Made by a program: the position numbers and the translations under genes
Origin: a virus
DNA length: 64,000 bases
IMG/VR virus record: IMGVR_UViG_3300034122_002202
Coordinates: 1 to 64,000 of that record
Strand: one strand, 5' to 3'
Shown: piece after piece, positions 7,966 through 17,386 of the stretch
How the letters are laid out: each line of letters begins with the position of its first letter
Position numbering within the stretch: the first letter of the stretch is position 1
The notes under the pieces: generated by a model
Databases searched by the model: none
What the model saw: only the letters and a program-made list of their open reading frames with translations
Told to the model about the DNA's origin: nothing

Positions 7966-8114
7966 ATAAAAATTAAAAATATTCGTTTGAATAAAAATCG
8001 ATTTTTCACGAATACTATAATAGAAGCGTGAGGGTGACCGCCACAAACCCGCCTAGATGCAAGTGCTGATAGGGATCGGGGATGCGGTACGACCACAAAA
8101 AAAAAGATTTTTAG

Positions 8115-8160
8115 AGCCATACCTTGGCGAACCCGCTTAATGTCGCTAAGACAAAGCAGG
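8115..8160 (-). ncRNA. Family A structured element 1
   Basis: On the minus strand a stem pairs CCTGCTT with AAGCGGG around an inner stem TGTC/GACA (loop TTAGC). It is followed by the family A tail, which runs GGGTTCGCCAAGGTATGG. It lies downstream of promoter copy 8. Whether it is an independent RNA, a leader or a terminator is not known. Confidence 0.45.
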
Positions 8161-8199
8161 AAGATCATTTCTCAAGTCGAATCGTATTGGCTATACTTT

Positions 8200-8229
8200 A
8201 TTATTCGTATTAGAACGAAAAATATTCAA
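8200..8229 (-). promoter_or_regulatory. Left-arm promoter copy 8
   Basis: Boxes at 8200-8205 (AATAAT) and 8224-8229 (TTGAAT), immediately beyond the terminator that follows the DUF932 gene. Reads into element A1. Confidence 0.7.
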
Positions 8230-8235
8230 AAGAAA

Positions 8236-8278
8236 AAAGAAAAAAACGCAGAGTGGAGTTAAGGGATCTCCACCCTGC
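8236..8278 (-). terminator. Intrinsic terminator after DUF932 gene
   Basis: On the minus strand an 11-bp stem pairs GCAGGGTGGAG (8268-8278) with CTCCACTCTGC (8248-8258), with one mismatch and a 9-nt loop. A T-rich tract follows. A second hairpin (TCCTGC/GCAGGA) lies between it and the gene. Confidence 0.8.
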
Positions 8279-10627: not shown

Positions 10628-10657
10628 ATTATTCGTACGAACATGATTTTTATTCAA
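10628..10657 (-). promoter_or_regulatory. Left-arm promoter copy 11
   Basis: Boxes at 10628-10633 and 10652-10657; drives the 44-aa gene. A palindromic upstream site begins 21 bp beyond the -35 box. Confidence 0.75.
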
Positions 10658-10678
10658 AAGATTTTTAAAATATTTTTT

Positions 10679-10696
10679 GTAATACTAAGTATTACC
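10679..10696. promoter_or_regulatory. Upstream site 1 (perfect palindrome)
   Basis: GTAATAC-TAA-GTATTAC plus a final C: a perfect 7-bp inverted repeat around TAA. It lies 21 bp upstream of the -35 box of promoter copy 11. Probable protein-binding site. Confidence 0.6.
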
Positions 10697-10703
10697 AGAA
10701 AAG

Positions 10704-10765
10704 CTATAGGCGTTCCGCATCCCCTATCCCTCTCCCGATACCAGAGAGGCGGGTTGTTTTACATC
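10704..10765 (-). ncRNA. Family B structured element 1
   Basis: On the minus strand a CCTCTC/GAGAGG hairpin is followed by a G-rich tail GGGATAGGGGATGCGG. It lies between promoter copies 12 and 11. It is the most divergent B member. Confidence 0.4.
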
Positions 10766-10816
10766 GGCCCTCCCGATTTTTTTCAAGTTTTAGATTCTTG
10801 TTTTCCTTTCTATACT

Positions 10817-10846
10817 ATTATTCGTTTGAACTTGAAAATTATTCAA
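10817..10846 (-). promoter_or_regulatory. Left-arm promoter copy 12
   Basis: Boxes at 10817-10822 and 10841-10846; reads into element B1. The upstream site begins 20 bp beyond the -35 box. Confidence 0.75.
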
Positions 10847-10866
10847 AAAAATCTTTTTATTTTATT

Positions 10867-10885
10867 GGTATAACAAAGTATAACC
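10867..10885. promoter_or_regulatory. Upstream site 2
   Basis: GGTATAACAAAGTATAACC, 20 bp upstream of the -35 box of promoter copy 12. Confidence 0.6.
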
Positions 10886-10924
10886 ATTTTTGGCTTTGGT
10901 GGTATGGGTAATCCGCTTGCTATT

Positions 10925-10970
10925 CGGGCATTACTTCGGGAACTCCGGTGGTATCCATAGGACACCGCCA
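10925..10970 (-). ncRNA. Family A structured element 2
   Basis: On the minus strand GGTGTCC and GGATACC form a 7-bp stem with loop TAT, flanked by GGC/GCC-type pairing. The family A tail GGAGTTCCCGAAGTAATGCC follows. Confidence 0.45.
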
Positions 10971-10975
10971 GATTA

Positions 10976-11187
10976 AAATTTAACTTTTTTGTTCATTGGA
11001 TAAAAGTTATAAACCAATTTCGCAATCTTTTCAGATTTCTCTTGACAGGTTTTTAACCCCATCAGTATAATTGTCTAGCAGAGGGATTTACTCTCACTTT
11101 TATTAAAAGCCTATCCTATCTCCAAATAGGTTAAAAATAATCTCCATCTGTAAGAGTTCTGTACTTGAGCAAAGATAAGAATAAATA
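10976..11187. other. Gene-free stretch with a plus-strand promoter
   Basis: I see no gene here. The only clear signal is the near-consensus sigma-70 promoter on the plus strand at 11042-11071. Confidence 0.4.
11042..11071 (+). promoter_or_regulatory. Near-consensus sigma-70 promoter, plus strand
   Basis: Perfect TTGACA (11042-11047) and perfect TATAAT (11066-11071) with an 18-bp spacer. It points right, against every gene in this arm, so its product would be antisense to the genes at 11188-11611 or a short RNA. Confidence 0.5.
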
Positions 11188-11382
11188 CTATACATTATCA
11201 CATTCCTCCAATAAAAAGTATTCTGGTACTGGTTCAAGTTCTTGCTTACCAAAGTGAAGCTTAATCCATAATTCTTTGATGTCTGCTTCCTTATAGAAAT
11301 GACCATCTTGTTTATCTAAACTTAATCTAATCAAAGAATGTTCAATCAATCTTTTCTCTGCATTACTTACTTCAATAATCAT
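11188..11382 (-). CDS. Small hypothetical protein (64 aa)
   Basis: Unrecognised protein starting MIIEVSNAEKRLIEHSLIRL at 11382, after TGGAGG. The ATG overlaps the TGA of the 26-aa membrane peptide (ATGA). Confidence 0.65.
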   Translation of the reverse strand: MIIEVSNAEKRLIEHSLIRLSLDKQDGHFYKEADIKELWIKLHFGKQELEPVPEYFLLEECDNV

Positions 11383-11459
11383 TGATCTACCTCCATAAAT
11401 ATCTTTATAAACAAAACCATAGACACATTTAAAAGAAAGCTTGCTGCGATTAATTCCAT
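11379..11459 (-). CDS. Tiny membrane peptide (26 aa)
   Basis: ATG at 11459 after AAGGAAGG encodes MELIAASFLLNVSMVLFIKI plus FMEVDQ, a single hydrophobic helix. It is coupled to both neighbours: its start follows the stop of 11459-11611 and its stop overlaps the next start. Phage micro-proteins of this type often act on host membranes, but no function can be inferred. Confidence 0.5.
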   Translation of the reverse strand: MELIAASFLLNVSMVLFIKIFMEVDQ

Positions 11460-11611
11460 TAAGCACCTTCCTTTATTAGTTTTAATTTTTCGCCCTGTCT
11501 GCCACCCTTGACAGACTTCTTTTTTGATTTGAATACCACCATGCCCCTTGGCGTTTCGCCCCTACGCTCGAAGGGCATATTTACTAATGTAAACCGAATA
11601 GTCCTGCTCAT
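11459..11611 (-). CDS. Small basic protein (50 aa)
   Basis: A 50-residue frame (MSRTIRFTLVNMPFERRGET) with a strongly basic C-terminal half (FKSKKKSVKGGRQGEKLKL). AAGGAG before the ATG at 11611; driven by promoter copy 13. A nucleic-acid-binding role is possible but unproven. Confidence 0.6.
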   Translation of the reverse strand: MSRTIRFTLVNMPFERRGETPRGMVVFKSKKKSVKGGRQGEKLKLIKEGA

Positions 11612-11631
11612 CGTACTTCTCCTTGTAAATT

Positions 11632-11661
11632 ATTATTCGTACAAACACACAATTTATTCAA
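11632..11661 (-). promoter_or_regulatory. Left-arm promoter copy 13
   Basis: Boxes at 11632-11637 and 11656-11661; drives 11459-11611, the membrane peptide and 11188-11382. Confidence 0.75.
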
Positions 11662-11671
11662 AACTTTTTTA

Positions 11672-12019
11672 CTAATCCCGATCATATCTACTTGGTTTAC
11701 GCATAGCATTGCCATGCTCATGAATGAAATCATCAATGCCTTGTGCTTCTTCGTTCTCAAACTCTCTATCTTCAAGCATTTTTGCTACTGCTTGACAACC
11801 ATCTAAGATCCTACAGTGTAAGTAGTTAGGATAAAGCCCAGTGTGACTATCTACATACCATCCCCATTCAAACTTTTCTTCCCATGATGTAACTTTGAAA
11901 GTATTCGACTTCGTGTCATAATCAACGCCCACATTATATTCCCTGCCATTAAGCAGGAGTGGTGGCATATGCTTGCGAAACTCGGCAAAATTCTCAACTT
12001 CGTGAATGATACTGGACAT
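11672..12019 (-). CDS. Hypothetical protein (115 aa)
   Basis: Unrecognised protein (MSSIIHEVENFAEFRKHMPP). The ATG at 12019 follows GGAGAAAG. The middle is rich in Trp and Tyr (KFEWGWYVDSHTGLYPNYLH). Confidence 0.7.
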   Translation of the reverse strand: MSSIIHEVENFAEFRKHMPPLLLNGREYNVGVDYDTKSNTFKVTSWEEKFEWGWYVDSHTGLYPNYLHCRILDGCQAVAKMLEDREFENEEAQGIDDFIHEHGNAMRKPSRYDRD

Positions 12020-12054
12020 TTTTCTTTCTCCGTTAGTGTTAGTTCTCATATCTT

Positions 12055-12084
12055 ATTATTCGTACAAACTTACTTTTTATTCAA
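12055..12084 (-). promoter_or_regulatory. Left-arm promoter copy 14
   Basis: Boxes at 12055-12060 and 12079-12084; drives 11672-12019. Confidence 0.75.
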
Positions 12085-12101
12085 AAAAATCTTTTTTATT
12101 T

Positions 12102-12272
12102 TTACCACCCTTGGCACTCTTCTTGCCTATCTTGTATTACCTTGCAATACTCTTGAGCTTCCTCCAAAGATTTAAACTCTTCCTCAATTTCCTCAATTTC
12201 CATCGTTTCAACGATCCAGTGACCACCAGCATCGTAATTCGCTAAAGCCCAATCGTAAATTTCTTTCCCCAT
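12102..12272 (-). CDS. Small acidic protein (56 aa)
   Basis: MGKEIYDWALANYDAGGHWI, then an acidic helix. ATG at 12272 after AAGGAAAG. The pattern (W-A-L-A-N-Y-D-A-G-G-H-W) is distinctive but not assigned. It is preceded by the second complete regulatory cassette. Confidence 0.65.
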   Translation of the reverse strand: MGKEIYDWALANYDAGGHWIVETMEIEEIEEEFKSLEEAQEYCKVIQDRQEECQGW

Positions 12273-12313
12273 CGTTCTTTCCTTTTCGTTAGTGTTGTTG
12301 TCTTCCATACTCT

Positions 12314-12343
12314 ATTATTCGTTTGAACTCTAAAATTATTCAA
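12314..12343 (-). promoter_or_regulatory. Left-arm promoter copy 15
   Basis: Boxes at 12314-12319 and 12338-12343; drives 12102-12272. Upstream site begins 21 bp beyond the -35 box. Confidence 0.75.
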
Positions 12344-12364
12344 AAGTTTTTTAAATTATTTTTA

Positions 12365-12382
12365 ATTATACTAAGTTATACC
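12365..12382. promoter_or_regulatory. Upstream site 3
   Basis: ATTATACTAAGTTATACC, 21 bp upstream of the -35 box of promoter copy 15. Confidence 0.6.
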
Positions 12383-12397
12383 TAATTTTATAAGTCC

Positions 12398-12436
12398 AGC
12401 CTCCCCCCATCCCCCCTAGATATTTCTCTAGGAGGC
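12398..12436 (-). ncRNA. Family B structured element 2
   Basis: Minus strand: hairpin CCTAGA/TCTAGG, then GGGGGGATGGGGGGAGGC. An outer GCCTCC/GGAGGC pairing is also possible. Lies between promoter copies 16 and 15. Confidence 0.5.
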
Positions 12437-12470
12437 AAGCTTATTTTGTATCGATCCTTCTCGATATTAT

Positions 12471-12500
12471 ATTATTCGTTTGAAACGCAAAATTATTCAA
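12471..12500 (-). promoter_or_regulatory. Left-arm promoter copy 16
   Basis: Boxes at 12471-12476 and 12495-12500; reads into element B2. Upstream site begins 18 bp beyond the -35 box. Confidence 0.75.
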
Positions 12501-12518
12501 AAAAAAATTAAAATAATT

Positions 12519-12536
12519 GGTATAACAAAGTATAAC
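12519..12536. promoter_or_regulatory. Upstream site 4
   Basis: GGTATAACAAAGTATAAC, 18 bp upstream of the -35 box of promoter copy 16; nearly identical to site 2. Confidence 0.6.
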
Positions 12537-12576
12537 TTTGCAAGCTTTTTGGCAGGGCAAAGACGCTTGCTAGCAA

Positions 12577-12630
12577 GGCATACCATCAGGAACCTCGGTG
12601 GTGTCCATAGGACACACCAAGCTTTTTTTT
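12577..12630 (-). ncRNA. Family A structured element 3
   Basis: Minus strand: GTGTCC/GGACAC stem with loop TAT, then the family A tail GAGGTTCCTGATGGTATGCC. Read on the plus strand, the hairpin is followed by eight T residues (12623-12630), so it could also be a plus-strand intrinsic terminator. Confidence 0.45.
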
Positions 12631-12734
12631 AAAGACTACTTTTTTCGTTTTCGGTATCTCACCGTGGTTTGCCCCTTAAAGTAGTAAACAGACCTATCGT
12701 TTAAACTTAATACATTTTTCTTTCCCTCTTGTTG

Positions 12735-12980
12735 TTATATTATATTATTCGTACTAGGCCCGATATTATTCAAAAAATAATCCCAATTCTTTTTAAAATC
12801 TGTATGCAGATATCGCATACAAGTTTGGGCAATGTTACGATATCCAACAATTTTGGCAACAACCTTTACTCTTGCCATATTGCATACCTTGCAATAGTGG
12901 CGTTGAAATATGTTTCCATCATCATCGGTATCTTGCCCTAGATTTTGCCACTTACCATGATTGCAATTCTTAACCTTCAT
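12735..12980 (-). CDS. Small putative zinc-finger protein (81 aa)
   Basis: The N-terminal half carries C6, H8, H28, C30 and C33 in the arrangement C-x-H ... R-H-Y-C-K-V-C, which could bind one zinc ion. ATG at 12980 after AAGGAAAG. Its last codons are formed by promoter copy 17, so coding and promoter sequence overlap. Probably cotranscribed with the gene at 13017-13700. Confidence 0.65.
   Translation of the reverse strand: MKVKNCNHGKWQNLGQDTDDDGNIFQRHYCKVCNMARVKVVAKIVGYRNIAQTCMRYLHTDFKKNWDYFLNNIGPSTNNII
12744..12773 (-). promoter_or_regulatory. Left-arm promoter copy 17
   Basis: Boxes at 12744-12749 and 12768-12773, lying inside the 3' end of the gene at 12735-12980. Reads into element A3. 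Confidence 0.7.
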
Positions 12981-13016
12981 TTTACTTTCCTTTTCTTTAT
13001 GGTCACAATATGTGAC

Positions 13017-13700
13017 CTAGTGATAGATATAGGCCACATTGTTGACATTCTTATCCCAACATTTACGGCAATCGTTGCAGTTTACCTTGCTTGCACCATT
13101 GAAAGCTTCAAGGCTTGCAGGGCAAATATTCTCATGACGATCATCGGCATTAACTGGTGTTCTTATTGCAGTGCTTGTGGGCAATCCTAGCCCCTTGCTA
13201 GGCACTTGATCGACCATGTACATACTTGGCCTAACTGTAAAATTCTTGGCAAATTCGCCATGTATAGCTAAGTATTCCCGAACCATGCCATGTTCTTTAG
13301 TTGGTAACCAGAATTTAACTTCTGGCAGGGCAAGAGCAATCTCATTCATTGCCACTAACATATCTAGACTTTGAACATCGCCACTTGTAAACCACCTAAA
13401 GTATGCATTAGACTTATCTTTCATGTGCTTATATTTCTTGGCTAGTGCTTTAATAAAAGCTTGCTTCCAAGACTCCAAGTCTTCTAGTTGACCTATCCTA
13501 ACATCATCGGCTTTTTTCTTGTTGCCAAAAAGGTATCTACCTTTAAGGGCATAACATCCCTCACATATACTACCCTTAACATCGACTAGCTTGCTTCCAG
13601 TCTTGCATTGTTTAGCTGGTAAATCCCAACTAATCCAAGGCATTTTTTCAGTTTGTGAGAAATTTATTTCTAATGGCTTGATAACTTCTAAACTTATCAT
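13017..13700 (-). CDS. GP88-like Cys-containing phage protein (227 aa)
   Basis: The layout resembles the phage Gene product 88 (GP88) family. An early tryptophan-containing motif (MPWISWDLPAKQC) is followed by a C-x2-CYA motif (SICEGCYALKGRY), a central RWFTSGDVQSLDML segment, and a C-terminal Cys cluster (C-x2-C-x2-C, NCNDCRKCW). The cysteines suggest a bound metal or Fe-S cluster. The biochemical role of the family is not established. AAGGAAAG precedes the ATG and promoter copy 18 drives it. The family assignment is from memory of the motifs and is moderately sure. Confidence 0.6.
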   Translation of the reverse strand: MISLEVIKPLEINFSQTEKMPWISWDLPAKQCKTGSKLVDVKGSICEGCYALKGRYLFGNKKKADDVRIGQLEDLESWKQAFIKALAKKYKHMKDKSNAYFRWFTSGDVQSLDMLVAMNEIALALPEVKFWLPTKEHGMVREYLAIHGEFAKNFTVRPSMYMVDQVPSKGLGLPTSTAIRTPVNADDRHENICPASLEAFNGASKVNCNDCRKCWDKNVNNVAYIYH

Positions 13701-13737
13701 CTTACTTTCCTTGTGTTAGTGTTACTTGCTATACTCT

Positions 13738-13767
13738 ATTATTCGTTTCAACTTTCAAATTATTCAA
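13738..13767 (-). promoter_or_regulatory. Left-arm promoter copy 18
   Basis: Boxes at 13738-13743 and 13762-13767; drives the GP88-like gene. The TGA in its -35 box ends the upstream gene. Confidence 0.75.
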
Positions 13768-13958
13768 AACTTTTCACAATTATTTTCAAATTCTTCAAGT
13801 AGTGCTTGCTCACATTCAAACTTATCGATCATCCTTGAAGTTAATTCTTCAAGATCAAATTCTTCAATTTCTTGACAAGTAGTTGGCATAAGCACTTCCC
13901 AGTTGGGTTCAATATTTTCATCATCGATCACAATTTCAAAATCAGAATCATCATTCAT
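13764..13958 (-). CDS. Small very acidic protein (64 aa)
   Basis: MNDDSDFEIVIDDENIEPNW and a helical, Glu-rich C-terminus. Strong negative charge suggests a DNA-mimic or inhibitor type protein, but this is only an inference. AAGGAAAAG before the ATG. Preceded by the third regulatory cassette. Confidence 0.65.
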   Translation of the reverse strand: MNDDSDFEIVIDDENIEPNWEVLMPTTCQEIEEFDLEELTSRMIDKFECEQALLEEFENNCEKF

Positions 13959-14001
13959 TTTACTTTTCCTTTTCTCTAGTGTTAGTTATCCCTTATACTC
14001 T

Positions 14002-14031
14002 ATTATTCGTTTTAACTTACAATTTATTCAA
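14002..14031 (-). promoter_or_regulatory. Left-arm promoter copy 19
   Basis: Boxes at 14002-14007 and 14026-14031; drives 13764-13958. Upstream site begins 30 bp beyond the -35 box. Confidence 0.75.
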
Positions 14032-14061
14032 ATAAAAATAAAATTATTTTAAATATATTTA

Positions 14062-14079
14062 GTAATACTAAATTATACC
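14062..14079. promoter_or_regulatory. Upstream site 5
   Basis: GTAATACTAAATTATACC, 30 bp upstream of the -35 box of promoter copy 19. Confidence 0.6.
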
Positions 14080-14090
14080 AAATTAAATTA

Positions 14091-14134
14091 GGGCAGGCTC
14101 CCCCCATCCTCCCTTAGTTGTTCACTAGGGGAGA
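14091..14134 (-). ncRNA. Family B structured element 3
   Basis: Minus strand: a 10-bp stem CTCCCCTAGT/ACTAAGGGAG with one mismatch and a 5-nt loop, then GATGGGGGGAGCCTG, matching element B2. Lies between promoter copies 20 and 19. Confidence 0.5.
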
Positions 14135-14171
14135 AGATTTTTATTAGGTTAATCTCCAACCTCTCTATAGT

Positions 14172-14201
14172 ATTATTCGTTTAAACTGTAAAATTATTCA
14201 A
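14172..14201 (-). promoter_or_regulatory. Left-arm promoter copy 20
   Basis: Boxes at 14172-14177 and 14196-14201; reads into element B3. Upstream site begins 28 bp beyond the -35 box. Confidence 0.75.
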
Positions 14202-14229
14202 ATAAAAATAAAAATATTTTGAGATAATT

Positions 14230-14248
14230 AGTATAACAAAGTAATACC
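14230..14248. promoter_or_regulatory. Upstream site 6
   Basis: AGTATAACAAAGTAATACC, 28 bp upstream of the -35 box of promoter copy 20. Confidence 0.6.
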
Positions 14249-14269
14249 AATTTTTGCTTTGATAGTAGT

Positions 14270-14288
14270 GGTAATACAAAGTAATACC
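14270..14288. promoter_or_regulatory. Upstream site 7 (second copy in the same region)
   Basis: GGTAATACAAAGTAATACC, 40 bp beyond site 6, i.e. about four helical turns. It overlaps the tail of element A4. Confidence 0.5.
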
Positions 14289-14332
14289 TCGGTAAGCCCG
14301 CTAGTCTTGGTAAGACTTGCAGGTTTTTTTTT
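14280..14332 (-). ncRNA. Family A structured element 4
   Basis: Minus strand: CCTGC-A-AGTCTT pairs with AAGACT-A-GCGGG around loop ACC, then GCTTACCGAGGTATTACC. On the plus strand the stem is followed by nine T residues (14324-14332), so a plus-strand terminator is an alternative reading. GC-rich hairpins continue to about 14390. Confidence 0.5.
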
Positions 14333-15088: not shown

Positions 15089-15118
15089 ATTATTCGTTTA
15101 AACTTAGAATTTATTCAA
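15089..15118 (-). promoter_or_regulatory. Left-arm promoter copy 22
   Basis: Boxes at 15089-15094 and 15113-15118; drives 14779-15030. Confidence 0.75.
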
Positions 15119-15145: not shown

Positions 15146-15167
15146 ATTAAGATAAACATATCCAATT
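15146..15167. repeat. 22-bp repeat, copy 1 of 2
   Basis: ATTAAGATAAACATATCC plus AATT; recurs with one mismatch at 15582-15603. In both places it lies between a family A element and the next promoter. Confidence 0.6.
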
Positions 15168-15181
15168 AGACTATGGGGTAT

Positions 15182-15227
15182 GGGCATACCTTCCCCAAGC
15201 CGACTATCTTGGTTAAGACAGTGGGTT
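15182..15227 (-). ncRNA. Family A structured element 5
   Basis: Minus strand: CTGTCTT/AAGATAG stem with loop AACC, then GGCTTGGGGAAGGTATGCCC. Confidence 0.5.
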
Positions 15228-15472: not shown

Positions 15473-15502
15473 ATTATTCGTTGTAACTTAGAATTTATTC
15501 AA
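15473..15502 (-). promoter_or_regulatory. Left-arm promoter copy 23
   Basis: Boxes at 15473-15478 and 15497-15502; drives 15252-15428. Upstream site begins 29 bp beyond the -35 box. Confidence 0.75.
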
Positions 15503-15531
15503 AATAAAATAAAAATAAATAAAAGAATTTT

Positions 15532-15550
15532 GGTATTACCTTGTTATACC
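15532..15550. promoter_or_regulatory. Upstream site 8
   Basis: GGTATTACCTTGTTATACC, a near palindrome, 29 bp upstream of the -35 box of promoter copy 23. Confidence 0.6.
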
Positions 15551-15581: not shown

Positions 15582-15603
15582 ATTAAGATAAAAATATCCA
15601 ATT
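15582..15603. repeat. 22-bp repeat, copy 2 of 2
   Basis: One mismatch to 15146-15167. Confidence 0.6.
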
Positions 15604-15627: not shown

Positions 15628-15672
15628 GGCGTACCTTCCCTAAGCCCAGTGACTTTGGTAAGACACTAGGTT
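15628..15672 (-). ncRNA. Family A structured element 6
   Basis: Minus strand: AGTG-T-CTT pairs with AAG-T-CACT around loop ACCA. The tail GGGCTTAGGGAAGGTACGCC follows. Stem bases differ from A4 and A5 but pairing is kept. Confidence 0.5.
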
Positions 15673-15720: not shown

Positions 15721-16221
15721 CTAGCTTGCCATCTTTGCGATGGCCTTGGCATGTAAACCGAAAGCACTCCCTTGGCTAATATCCAGTTTGCGAGCAATTT
15801 CATCGAAGTTATATCCCTTCGATCTTAAGGCCAAGATATTGTGTTCTGTAAAGTCGATAATACCAGCATCGTAAGCATCTCGAAGATGGAAAGTTAAAAC
15901 TTCCATTGTATTAGTAGGTCGGCCTTGCAATTCAATATTATTACCATTTTCAGAATCTTCGAACTTGGTAATAGTAACTGTTTTACCTTGACGCTTATTT
16001 GTATTCAAACGCCTATTTTCGTCAATAAGAATATTCTTAAAACAAGGGTATAAAATAGTATTAAACTTATTACCAAGACTAGGGTTGAAAAGTTCATTGG
16101 CCTTGGTAACGGACATAATAGCTAAATCTTCAAAATCGGTATAACCAAGGCGTTTGGCCTTACGGCTTAACTTGTCGATGCTAGCATAAAATAATTCTAC
16201 TGAAATTTTCAATTCGCTCAT
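15721..16221 (-). CDS. Sigma-70-like factor, left arm (166 aa)
   Basis: Residues about 24-72 resemble sigma region 2 (YTDFEDLAIMSVTKANELF, then KFNTILYPCFKNILIDENRR, the typical pattern before an N-x-LID-x2-R helix). Residues about 120-165 resemble a region 4 helix-turn-helix (TEHNILALRSKGYNFDEIAR, then KLDISQGSAFGLHAKAI). The protein is shorter than ECF sigma factors but has both halves. It is the first gene of the left arm, next to 23 uniform promoters, so it may direct RNA polymerase to them (inference). AAGGAAAAG precedes the ATG. Its own promoter region has a TATTATTCG box but no matching -35. A hairpin terminator follows. Confidence 0.7.
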   Translation of the reverse strand: MSELKISVELFYASIDKLSRKAKRLGYTDFEDLAIMSVTKANELFNPSLGNKFNTILYPCFKNILIDENRRLNTNKRQGKTVTITKFEDSENGNNIELQGRPTNTMEVLTFHLRDAYDAGIIDFTEHNILALRSKGYNFDEIARKLDISQGSAFGLHAKAIAKMAS

Positions 16222-16653: not shown

Positions 16654-16800
16654 ATGAACAAAGATGAGCCAATTGAAGTAGAGACAAGAATTAAGGTGAT
16701 AGCAGGGTGTGTATTACCAGAACCAGAACTGTTAGCCCCAACACCCCCCATTGAACAAGCGTTAGCCAGTATCGAAGAGAACATCATAAAAGATGAATGA
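16654..16800 (+). CDS. Small hypothetical protein (48 aa)
   Basis: First rightward gene: MNKDEPIEVETRIKVIAGCV, Pro- and Glu-rich C-terminus. The ATG at 16654 has a GGTG tract 6 bases before it; an upstream in-frame ATG at 16567 has no ribosome binding site. It overlaps the next gene by 8 bases. Confidence 0.5.
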   Translation: MNKDEPIEVETRIKVIAGCVLPEPELLAPTPPIEQALASIEENIIKDE

Positions 16801-17386
16801 TTATCCGCATGGATTAAAGGAGGAAGATGTTATATTAGCTTTGAAGAAAGCAATTAACCTTCTTGCTCCAACATTTACTTTCGGATATTACGATGTGGAA
16901 GACATTAGGCAGGAAGCTTACATATTTGGACTTGAATCTTTATCTCGCTATGACCCATCTCGCCCCTTAGAAAACTTTCTTTATTCGCACATTAAAAACA
17001 GACTTATAAATTTTAAGAGAGACAAGTATCATAGAACAGATCCCCCATGTAAACTATGTCATGATTCAAACAAATGTTCAGATGGCAATTACTGCGAAAA
17101 GTATAAGGCATGGAAGAAAAGGAATTCATCTAAGCAAAATTTAATGCGACCCTTAGATATACAAACAATCTCAGACGATACAGAAAAGAACGCACACGGA
17201 AAACAATCTGTTGTAGATGAGGCGAACATCTCTGAGTGTTCTAATCTAATAGACTTGCACCTTCCTGTTGAACTTCGTTCAATATATCTTAGAATTAAAG
17301 CTGGTGAGTCTGTTCCCAAAATAAAAAAGCAAAGAGTTGAACAAGCAATTAAGGAGATCCTCAATGGCAGGAAAGAAGCTGAATAG
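16793..17386 (+). CDS. Sigma-70-like factor with Cys cluster (197 aa)
   Basis: Residues 33-80 match sigma region 2 (YDVEDIRQEAYIFGLESLSR, then FLYSHIKNRLINFKRD). Directly after this comes a four-cysteine cluster (C86-x2-C89-x5-C95-x5-C101) that could bind zinc, which is unusual for a sigma factor. The C-terminal part (LPVELRSIYLRIKAGESVPK, then QRVEQAIKEIL) is a reduced region 4-like helical stretch. It lies at the head of the packaging and structural operon, so a role as late-gene sigma factor is inferred. It overlaps both neighbours. Confidence 0.7.
   Translation: MNDYPHGLKEEDVILALKKAINLLAPTFTFGYYDVEDIRQEAYIFGLESLSRYDPSRPLENFLYSHIKNRLINFKRDKYHRTDPPCKLCHDSNKCSDGNYCEKYKAWKKRNSSKQNLMRPLDIQTISDDTEKNAHGKQSVVDEANISECSNLIDLHLPVELRSIYLRIKAGESVPKIKKQRVEQAIKEILNGRKEAE

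Follow-up and report, generated by a model that had tools for sequence, protein, structure and literature searches.

In this study, we analysed a window of 64,000 nucleotides, bases 1-64000 of the 141,809-base virus record IMGVR_UViG_3300034122_002202 from IMG/VR, an uncultured tailed phage, and found that three of its intergenic regions, at 10.63-10.97, 12.31-12.62 and 14.00-14.32 kb, hold the same cassette on the minus strand. Read along that strand, each consists of hairpin element A, a palindromic site, a distal promoter, hairpin element B, a further palindromic site, a proximal promoter and a small gene, A thus lying upstream of the distal promoter and B between the two promoters. These cassettes, hereafter cassettes 10, 12 and 14, are real, conserved and structured, and we describe them as exchange cassettes of the promoter/stem-loop kind, which hold two RNA elements not described before and a putative operator. 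We propose, with a probability of about 0.6, that they constitute a regulator-dependent promoter and leader-RNA module which doubles as a recombination point.

The seven-part order had been described in an original prediction, which regarded a lack of stable RNAs together with a lack of conserved order in relatives as evidence against it. Cassettes or their elements were identified in the relatives L010, L013, L014, L015, L016/L017, L035, L018 and the group L064/L069/L073, and the order is kept in several of these uncultured phages, including L018, whose protein at 13017-13700 shares 70% identity with that of the window. While the promoter of L018 is altered to CTAAATAA...ACGAATATA, A, B, the sites and their order are still present at all three places.

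Promoters and palindromic sites of the cassettes

The cassette promoter, TTGAATAA-N13-ACGAATAAT, comprises a -35 box TTGAAT, a spacer of 18 bases and a -10 box AATAAT, and has 16 exact matches in the window, all on the minus strand, with 0.00 expected from 100 dinucleotide shuffles. With a slightly relaxed pattern the 141.8-kb record yielded 22 matches, every one of them leftward (minus) and 20 within 0-16 kb, where many leftward genes carry a promoter of this type. The sigma-like protein encoded at the end of this region (Table 1) may plausibly read the repeated promoter. Its syntenic relatives match Sigma70_r2, with scores over the curated cut-off in L015 and L016 but under it in L010, L013 and L018. 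Among L013-L017 the protein varies much faster than the promoter, and in L018 the two both differ. A second promoter form with ATCGGATAAT adjoins the sigma gene in L013, L014, L016 and L035; copies reading TTGAATAA...TCGGATAAT lie at 7104-7820 in L013, 8480 in L014, 8046 in L016 and about 1130 and 1800 in L035, and none was found in the record of the window. A second sigma-70 region 2 protein is encoded at 16793-17386 (+), divergent from the first.

The palindrome GTWWTACTTNGTWWTA has five exact matches in the window, which are also all those of the record; all are within cassettes, and shuffled sequences gave none. Its centre is located 27-29 or 37-40 bases upstream of the first -35 base in almost all cases, the two spacings being about one helical turn apart, and in several units a second palindrome, GGATATNTTTATCC, replaces the first type at 38-40 bases. 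Palindromes at conserved spacing occur only before the cassette promoters and the promoters of two single A units at 15.1 and 15.5 kb. A look-alike 57 bases from promoter 12084, inside a gene, was taken as chance. The phase concentration at a period of 10-11 bases was 0.88, a value reached in 0 of 20,000 simulations, related promoters not being independent of each other. Such spacing in helical phase is the expected layout of an upstream regulator contacting the polymerase.

Two structured RNA elements read from the minus strand

Element B is 67-73 nucleotides long, starts about 10-50 nucleotides after the distal -10 box and is composed of two covarying helices and a G-rich tail, GGGAUGGGGGGAG or GGGAUNGGGGAUGCGG. 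A covariance model (R1) trained on four sequences, three of the 12-kb cassette and one from cassette 14 of L014, recovered the unseen 10-kb and 14-kb copies (expectation values, E, of 8e-6 and 5e-5) and no other significant match in the genome. Among 18 distinct sequences, 12 of the 14 pairs are changed on both sides and 97.1% of cells are paired, compared with at most 56% in slid controls, although the alignment was fitted to R1, which favours the structure. Three further features of B were considered and set aside. A short frame that opens with ATG downstream of the G-rich tail shows, by eye, mostly amino-acid-changing variation and is missing in L013; the GGA of the first hairpin loop, which a CsrA-type decoy would need, is missing from cassette 14 of L018 and from a copy at 8 kb; and a loop-to-linker pseudoknot (GGG with CCC, AAG with CUU) is suggestive, but its register shifts between types, and it is not claimed.

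Element A forms a hairpin whose GUCUUAYC loop region is strongly conserved and which is followed in the main type by GGGCUU(A)GGGAAGGUAYGCC. Pairing is kept in 92.5%, and four of 11 pairs, all in the lower stem, are changed on both sides. The model of A (R2) finds the 14.3-kb copy and further copies at 15.2 and 15.65 kb. The 10- and 12-kb copies represent a diverged subtype, which is linked to the main type by copies of L018 and L073 that occupy the same place and fit the main type. A search of Rfam gave no match at A or B at the gathering threshold or with E up to 5.

A and B are structured RNAs read from the minus strand. The minus-strand fold was the better one in 14 of 14 copies of B and 15 of 17 of A, and hand-aligned stems contain 32 G-U versus 2 A-C pairs, a count biased by drawing the stems on the minus strand, of which the fold comparison is independent. 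MAFFT with RNAalifold recovered no structure for either element since the stems were misaligned, thus the hand alignment and covariance models were used instead. In two terminator scans no leftward intrinsic terminator was found at A or B in the cassettes, T-runs being on the opposite strand; one scan gave a weak leftward match in the tail of B of cassette 14 (14089-14106), which the second did not confirm.

Arrangements beyond those of the original prediction were also identified, namely A-site-promoter units at 15.1 and 15.5 kb and a facing pair of A and B at 8.02-8.23 kb. RNAs of the A/B type have their own promoter at 8.2 and 12.77 kb, with no clear terminator in the cassettes. The latter promoter (12744-12773, minus strand) leads through a ribosome site, a two-codon frame AUG UAU UAA (AUG AUC UAG in L018) and a three-way-junction RNA into A of cassette 12. 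The junction RNA (12635-12715, minus strand) is conserved with paired changes, and no other gene lies between promoter and A. The two-codon frame recalls the bar minigenes of lambda. Within 7978-8230, A9/T9 separates the facing B-like (+) and A-like (-) elements, and a strong leftward terminator is located just upstream, at 8246.

Table 1. Positions of cassette parts and associated features in the window
Feature	Position	Strand	Basis or remark
Cassette 10, element A, main hairpin	10944..10972	-	Fold and strand comparison; position and order kept in L010, L014, L015, L018; structured sequence runs on to ~10889
Cassette 10, distal palindromic site GGTTATACTTTGTTATACC	10867..10885	-	Site scan
Cassette 10, distal promoter	10817..10846	-	Exact promoter match
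Cassette 10, element B, two hairpins and G-rich tail	10712..10778	-	Model R1, outside training set
Cassette 10, proximal palindromic site	10679..10697	-	Site scan
Cassette 10, proximal promoter	10628..10657	-	Exact promoter match
Cassette 10, small gene, 44 amino acids	10456..10590	-	57-100% identity in L010, L014, L015, L018
Cassette 12, element A, main hairpin	12594..12621	-	Fold and strand comparison; same place in L010, L014, L015, L018, L064, L069, L073; structured sequence reaches ~12541
Cassette 12, distal palindromic site	12519..12537	-	Site scan
Cassette 12, distal promoter	12471..12500	-	Exact promoter match
Cassette 12, element B	12394..12466	-	R1 training member; covariation at 12/14 pairs
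Cassette 12, proximal palindromic site, right half degenerate	12364..12382	-	Site scan
Cassette 12, proximal promoter	12314..12343	-	Exact promoter match
Cassette 12, small gene, 56 amino acids	12102..12272	-	Relative comparison; unrelated gene in its place in L018
Cassette 14, element A	14281..14323	-	R2 training member; palindrome 14270-14288 overlaps its end
Cassette 14, distal palindromic site	14230..14248	-	Site scan
Cassette 14, distal promoter	14172..14201	-	Exact promoter match
Cassette 14, element B	14091..14162	-	Model R1, outside training set
Cassette 14, proximal palindromic site	14061..14079	-	Site scan
Cassette 14, proximal promoter	14002..14031	-	Exact promoter match
Cassette 14, small gene, 64 amino acids	13764..13958	-	46-81% identity in relatives
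Single A unit at 15.1 kb	15183..15225	-	R2 E 6e-5; then second-type site GGATATGTTTATC 15151-15163, promoter 15089-15118
Single A unit at 15.5 kb	15628..15670	-	R2 E 1e-4; then second-type site 15587-15599, first-type site 15531-15550, promoter 15473-15502
A-like element right after promoter 8200-8229	8116..8160	-	Weak R2 match in window (E 0.12); L014 and L015 equivalents E 0.001 and 0.02
B-like element right after promoter-like 7987-8015, facing A-like element	8022..8092	+	By reading ACCCGCC...GGGATCGGGGATGCGG; R1 gave no score
Phage sigma-like factor, candidate reader of repeated promoter	15721..16221	-	PHROG 351 sigma E 1e-5; Pfam Sigma70_ECF E 5e-4, just below cut-off

Exchange at the repeats and a proposed control module

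Rearrangements in four relatives bear on how the cassettes spread. In L015, A and the second-type site of the 15.5-kb unit are joined directly to the proximal promoter and gene of cassette 14 with loss of the intervening genes, and the parent-like matches overlap by 14 bases in an A/T-rich stretch before the -35 box. L013 has an extra full cassette adjoining the sigma gene. In L018, the B of cassette 14 is of the 10-kb type, and cassette 12 is followed by an unrelated gene. L073 contains a tandem promoter-B-promoter-B; the A hairpin is absent from cassette 10 in L073 and L064. The spread of the unit is most simply explained by exchange at the repeats. It had been suggested that the cassette is a modular unit that copies itself by recombination; the loss in L015, the tandem B of L073 and the replacements in L018 agree with spread by recombination, whereas self-copying need not be assumed, as ordinary homologous recombination between repeats suffices for the data.

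We suggest that each cassette would act as a control module of the leftward region of the phage. A putative dimeric DNA-binding protein would bind at the palindrome, at a distance of about 65 or 75 bases before the start and on the helix face of the polymerase, and would switch both cassette promoters, presumably by activation rather than repression. These promoters otherwise resemble the roughly 20 promoters of the region and are probably read with the phage-encoded sigma factor. The distal promoter, if active, would give a longer transcript, led at its 5' end by folded B. A would form the 3' end of the transcript of the preceding unit, which in cassette 12 starts at a promoter without its own gene. 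The most likely mode of action of both elements would be in cis, on the transcript during or after its synthesis, through processing, stability or polymerase behaviour. The module, being repeated, would also serve as a homologous recombination point, at which small genes may be exchanged, lost or added.

Several points weigh against this proposal. No regulator was found for the palindrome, and the position of the site alone cannot separate activation from repression. The sigma protein is down to 43-48% identity in L013-L017 despite an unchanged promoter, which makes the sigma-promoter pairing less likely, though still plausible. In addition, it is the location of B after the distal promoter that suggests a leader role, and the recombination reading draws on few events.

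As for the RNAs themselves, cis-acting leaders, put-like action included, seem to us somewhat the better choice, and are preferred over small RNAs owing to the lack of leftward terminators. It has been proposed that the cassettes encode a regulated pair of small RNAs; A and B would then be trans-acting regulators, each cassette would encode small RNAs under promoters of their own, and the downstream gene would be incidental. The conserved structures of both elements, their transcribed strand and the situation at 8 kb, where the facing A-like and B-like elements lie immediately behind a promoter each and no sense gene comes after them, are in line with this idea, as is cassette 12, where A is reached from the conserved promoter through the two-codon frame and the conserved three-way-junction RNA alone. 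However, no leftward intrinsic terminator closes A or B in the cassettes, and a site, a promoter and a gene follow B at a close and conserved distance. With B as the 5' leader of the longer transcript of the gene, a cis-acting leader is at least as likely, and we regard trans-acting small RNAs as possible and rather less probable; the facing elements at 8 kb and the promoter of A in cassette 12 fit both roles.

The hairpins might alternatively be rightward (plus-strand) terminators that shield the leftward region from antisense transcription, the minus-strand folds being a by-product. On the plus strand, terminator scores were obtained for the A hairpins of cassettes 12 and 14, behind which T8-T9 lies, and for the B hairpins at 10 and 14 kb; a perfect TTGACA-18-TATAAT promoter at 11042-11071 points rightward. 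On the other hand, the G-U pairs occur on the minus strand, where the folds are more stable. Cassette 10 and several relatives have a weak T-run or none, and a terminator role does not account for the conserved G-rich tail of B; we consider this explanation unlikely. The promoter at 11042-11071 (+), with its 18-base spacer, is the sole perfect TTGACA-N16-18-TATAAT promoter in the record and is opposed to all local genes; by eye it is also intact in L018 (complement of 12.76-12.80 kb), and is possibly a host-sigma promoter for an antisense or short RNA.

By analogy, B might be a polymerase-modifying leader like the put RNA of HK022, with the distal transcript reading through later terminators. 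The put RNA is about 70 nucleotides long with two stem-loops, is located just downstream of early phage promoters and is present twice per genome (PMC9378689). B likewise has about this length and two helices directly downstream of promoters in several copies per genome, the earliness of those promoters being presumed; it differs in sequence context, so the likeness covers length, stem-loop number and place. Only one clear leftward terminator (8246) lies downstream within 10 kb, and put-like action by itself would be an improbable account. Ordinary tandem promoters with incidental hairpins, alike through recent duplication alone, are very improbable. The copies do resemble each other and recombination has clearly occurred, but compensatory changes run all through B and are present in the stem of A, which already disfavours this account, and a relative with about 30% divergence in a neighbouring protein retains the order even though its promoter sequence changed.

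Relation to known systems and the phage genome

The first 100 bases of the record are repeated from 141682 to its end, so the record probably represents the whole genome as a circular map of about 141.7 kb. Leftward genes start at 16.3 kb and rightward genes at 16.6 kb. Replication genes of the record encode Pol III alpha, DnaB, Toprim/primase and RecA-like proteins, and judged by the genes seen, with their Pol III alpha-type polymerase, the phage is not of the T4 type. A DUF1501 protein (E 5e-91) at 133488-134765 of the record (L101:9488-10765) is possibly a host gene, which we take as hinting at a planctomycete or related host. At 57120-71204 (+) of the record, a 4694-codon open frame extends past the end of the window. 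The DNA of 9-17 kb had no match among isolated-phage records. A gp88-family protein has matches of 56-57% identity in L091-L097, of which L091 and L097 show another gene context and no cassettes; in GTDB genomes neither a relative of this protein nor the B pattern was found.

In T4-type phages, PeSLs have been reported as intergenic promoter and stem-loop units, present in many copies around small genes of unknown function, that act as gene-shuffling sites, and the 2014 title calls them promoter-terminator motifs (Arbiol et al. 2010; Comeau et al. 2014; as cited in PMC4503421 and PMC3950731). The cassettes are likewise repeated intergenic promoter and stem-loop units between small genes and, in the few events seen in L015, L018, L073 and L013, mediate gene shuffling between relatives. 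Unlike PeSLs, their stem-loops are not leftward terminators for the upstream gene, their promoter is the phage-specific TTGAATAA-N13-ACGAATAAT and not the host-type early promoter of a T4-like myovirus, and they alternate two different structured RNAs and add a palindromic site. Despite the PeSL-like exchange, we do not assign the cassettes to the PeSLs because the terminator feature is lacking.

In the haloarchaeal virus HGTV-1, most open reading frames of one arm are preceded by a repeated motif that resembles a promoter and has an inverted repeat, and its authors compare this motif to PeSLs (PMC3950731). The cassettes are similar in combining a promoter with an inverted repeat before genes of one genome region, but the HGTV-1 promoter is of the archaeal TATA type, and no paired A/B RNAs are described for that virus. 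In cluster K mycobacteriophages, the SAS is a 13-bp repeat abutting the start codon and linked to translation, and the ESAS/SAS system includes inverted repeats of 17 bp; its elements precede many small genes, are shared by related phages and have no known function (PMC3203893). The cassettes also hold repeated elements with inverted repeats upstream of small genes, kept between relatives, but their palindromes are 5' of promoters in helical phase and not at the start codon.

We tentatively suggest that A and B may be two new phage RNA families, which together with the palindrome and its putative regulator would form a transferable regulatory unit spread by recombination, such that gaining a small gene would, in one step, bring it under transcriptional control and provide it with an RNA leader or small RNA. 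Both RNA families and the putative operator are well defined and directly testable, and natural recombinants among the relatives already reveal which parts of the cassette move together. If the proposed module holds true, it would provide a worked case, outside the T4-type phages, of control that is kept over fast-changing small genes and travels with the recombination point.

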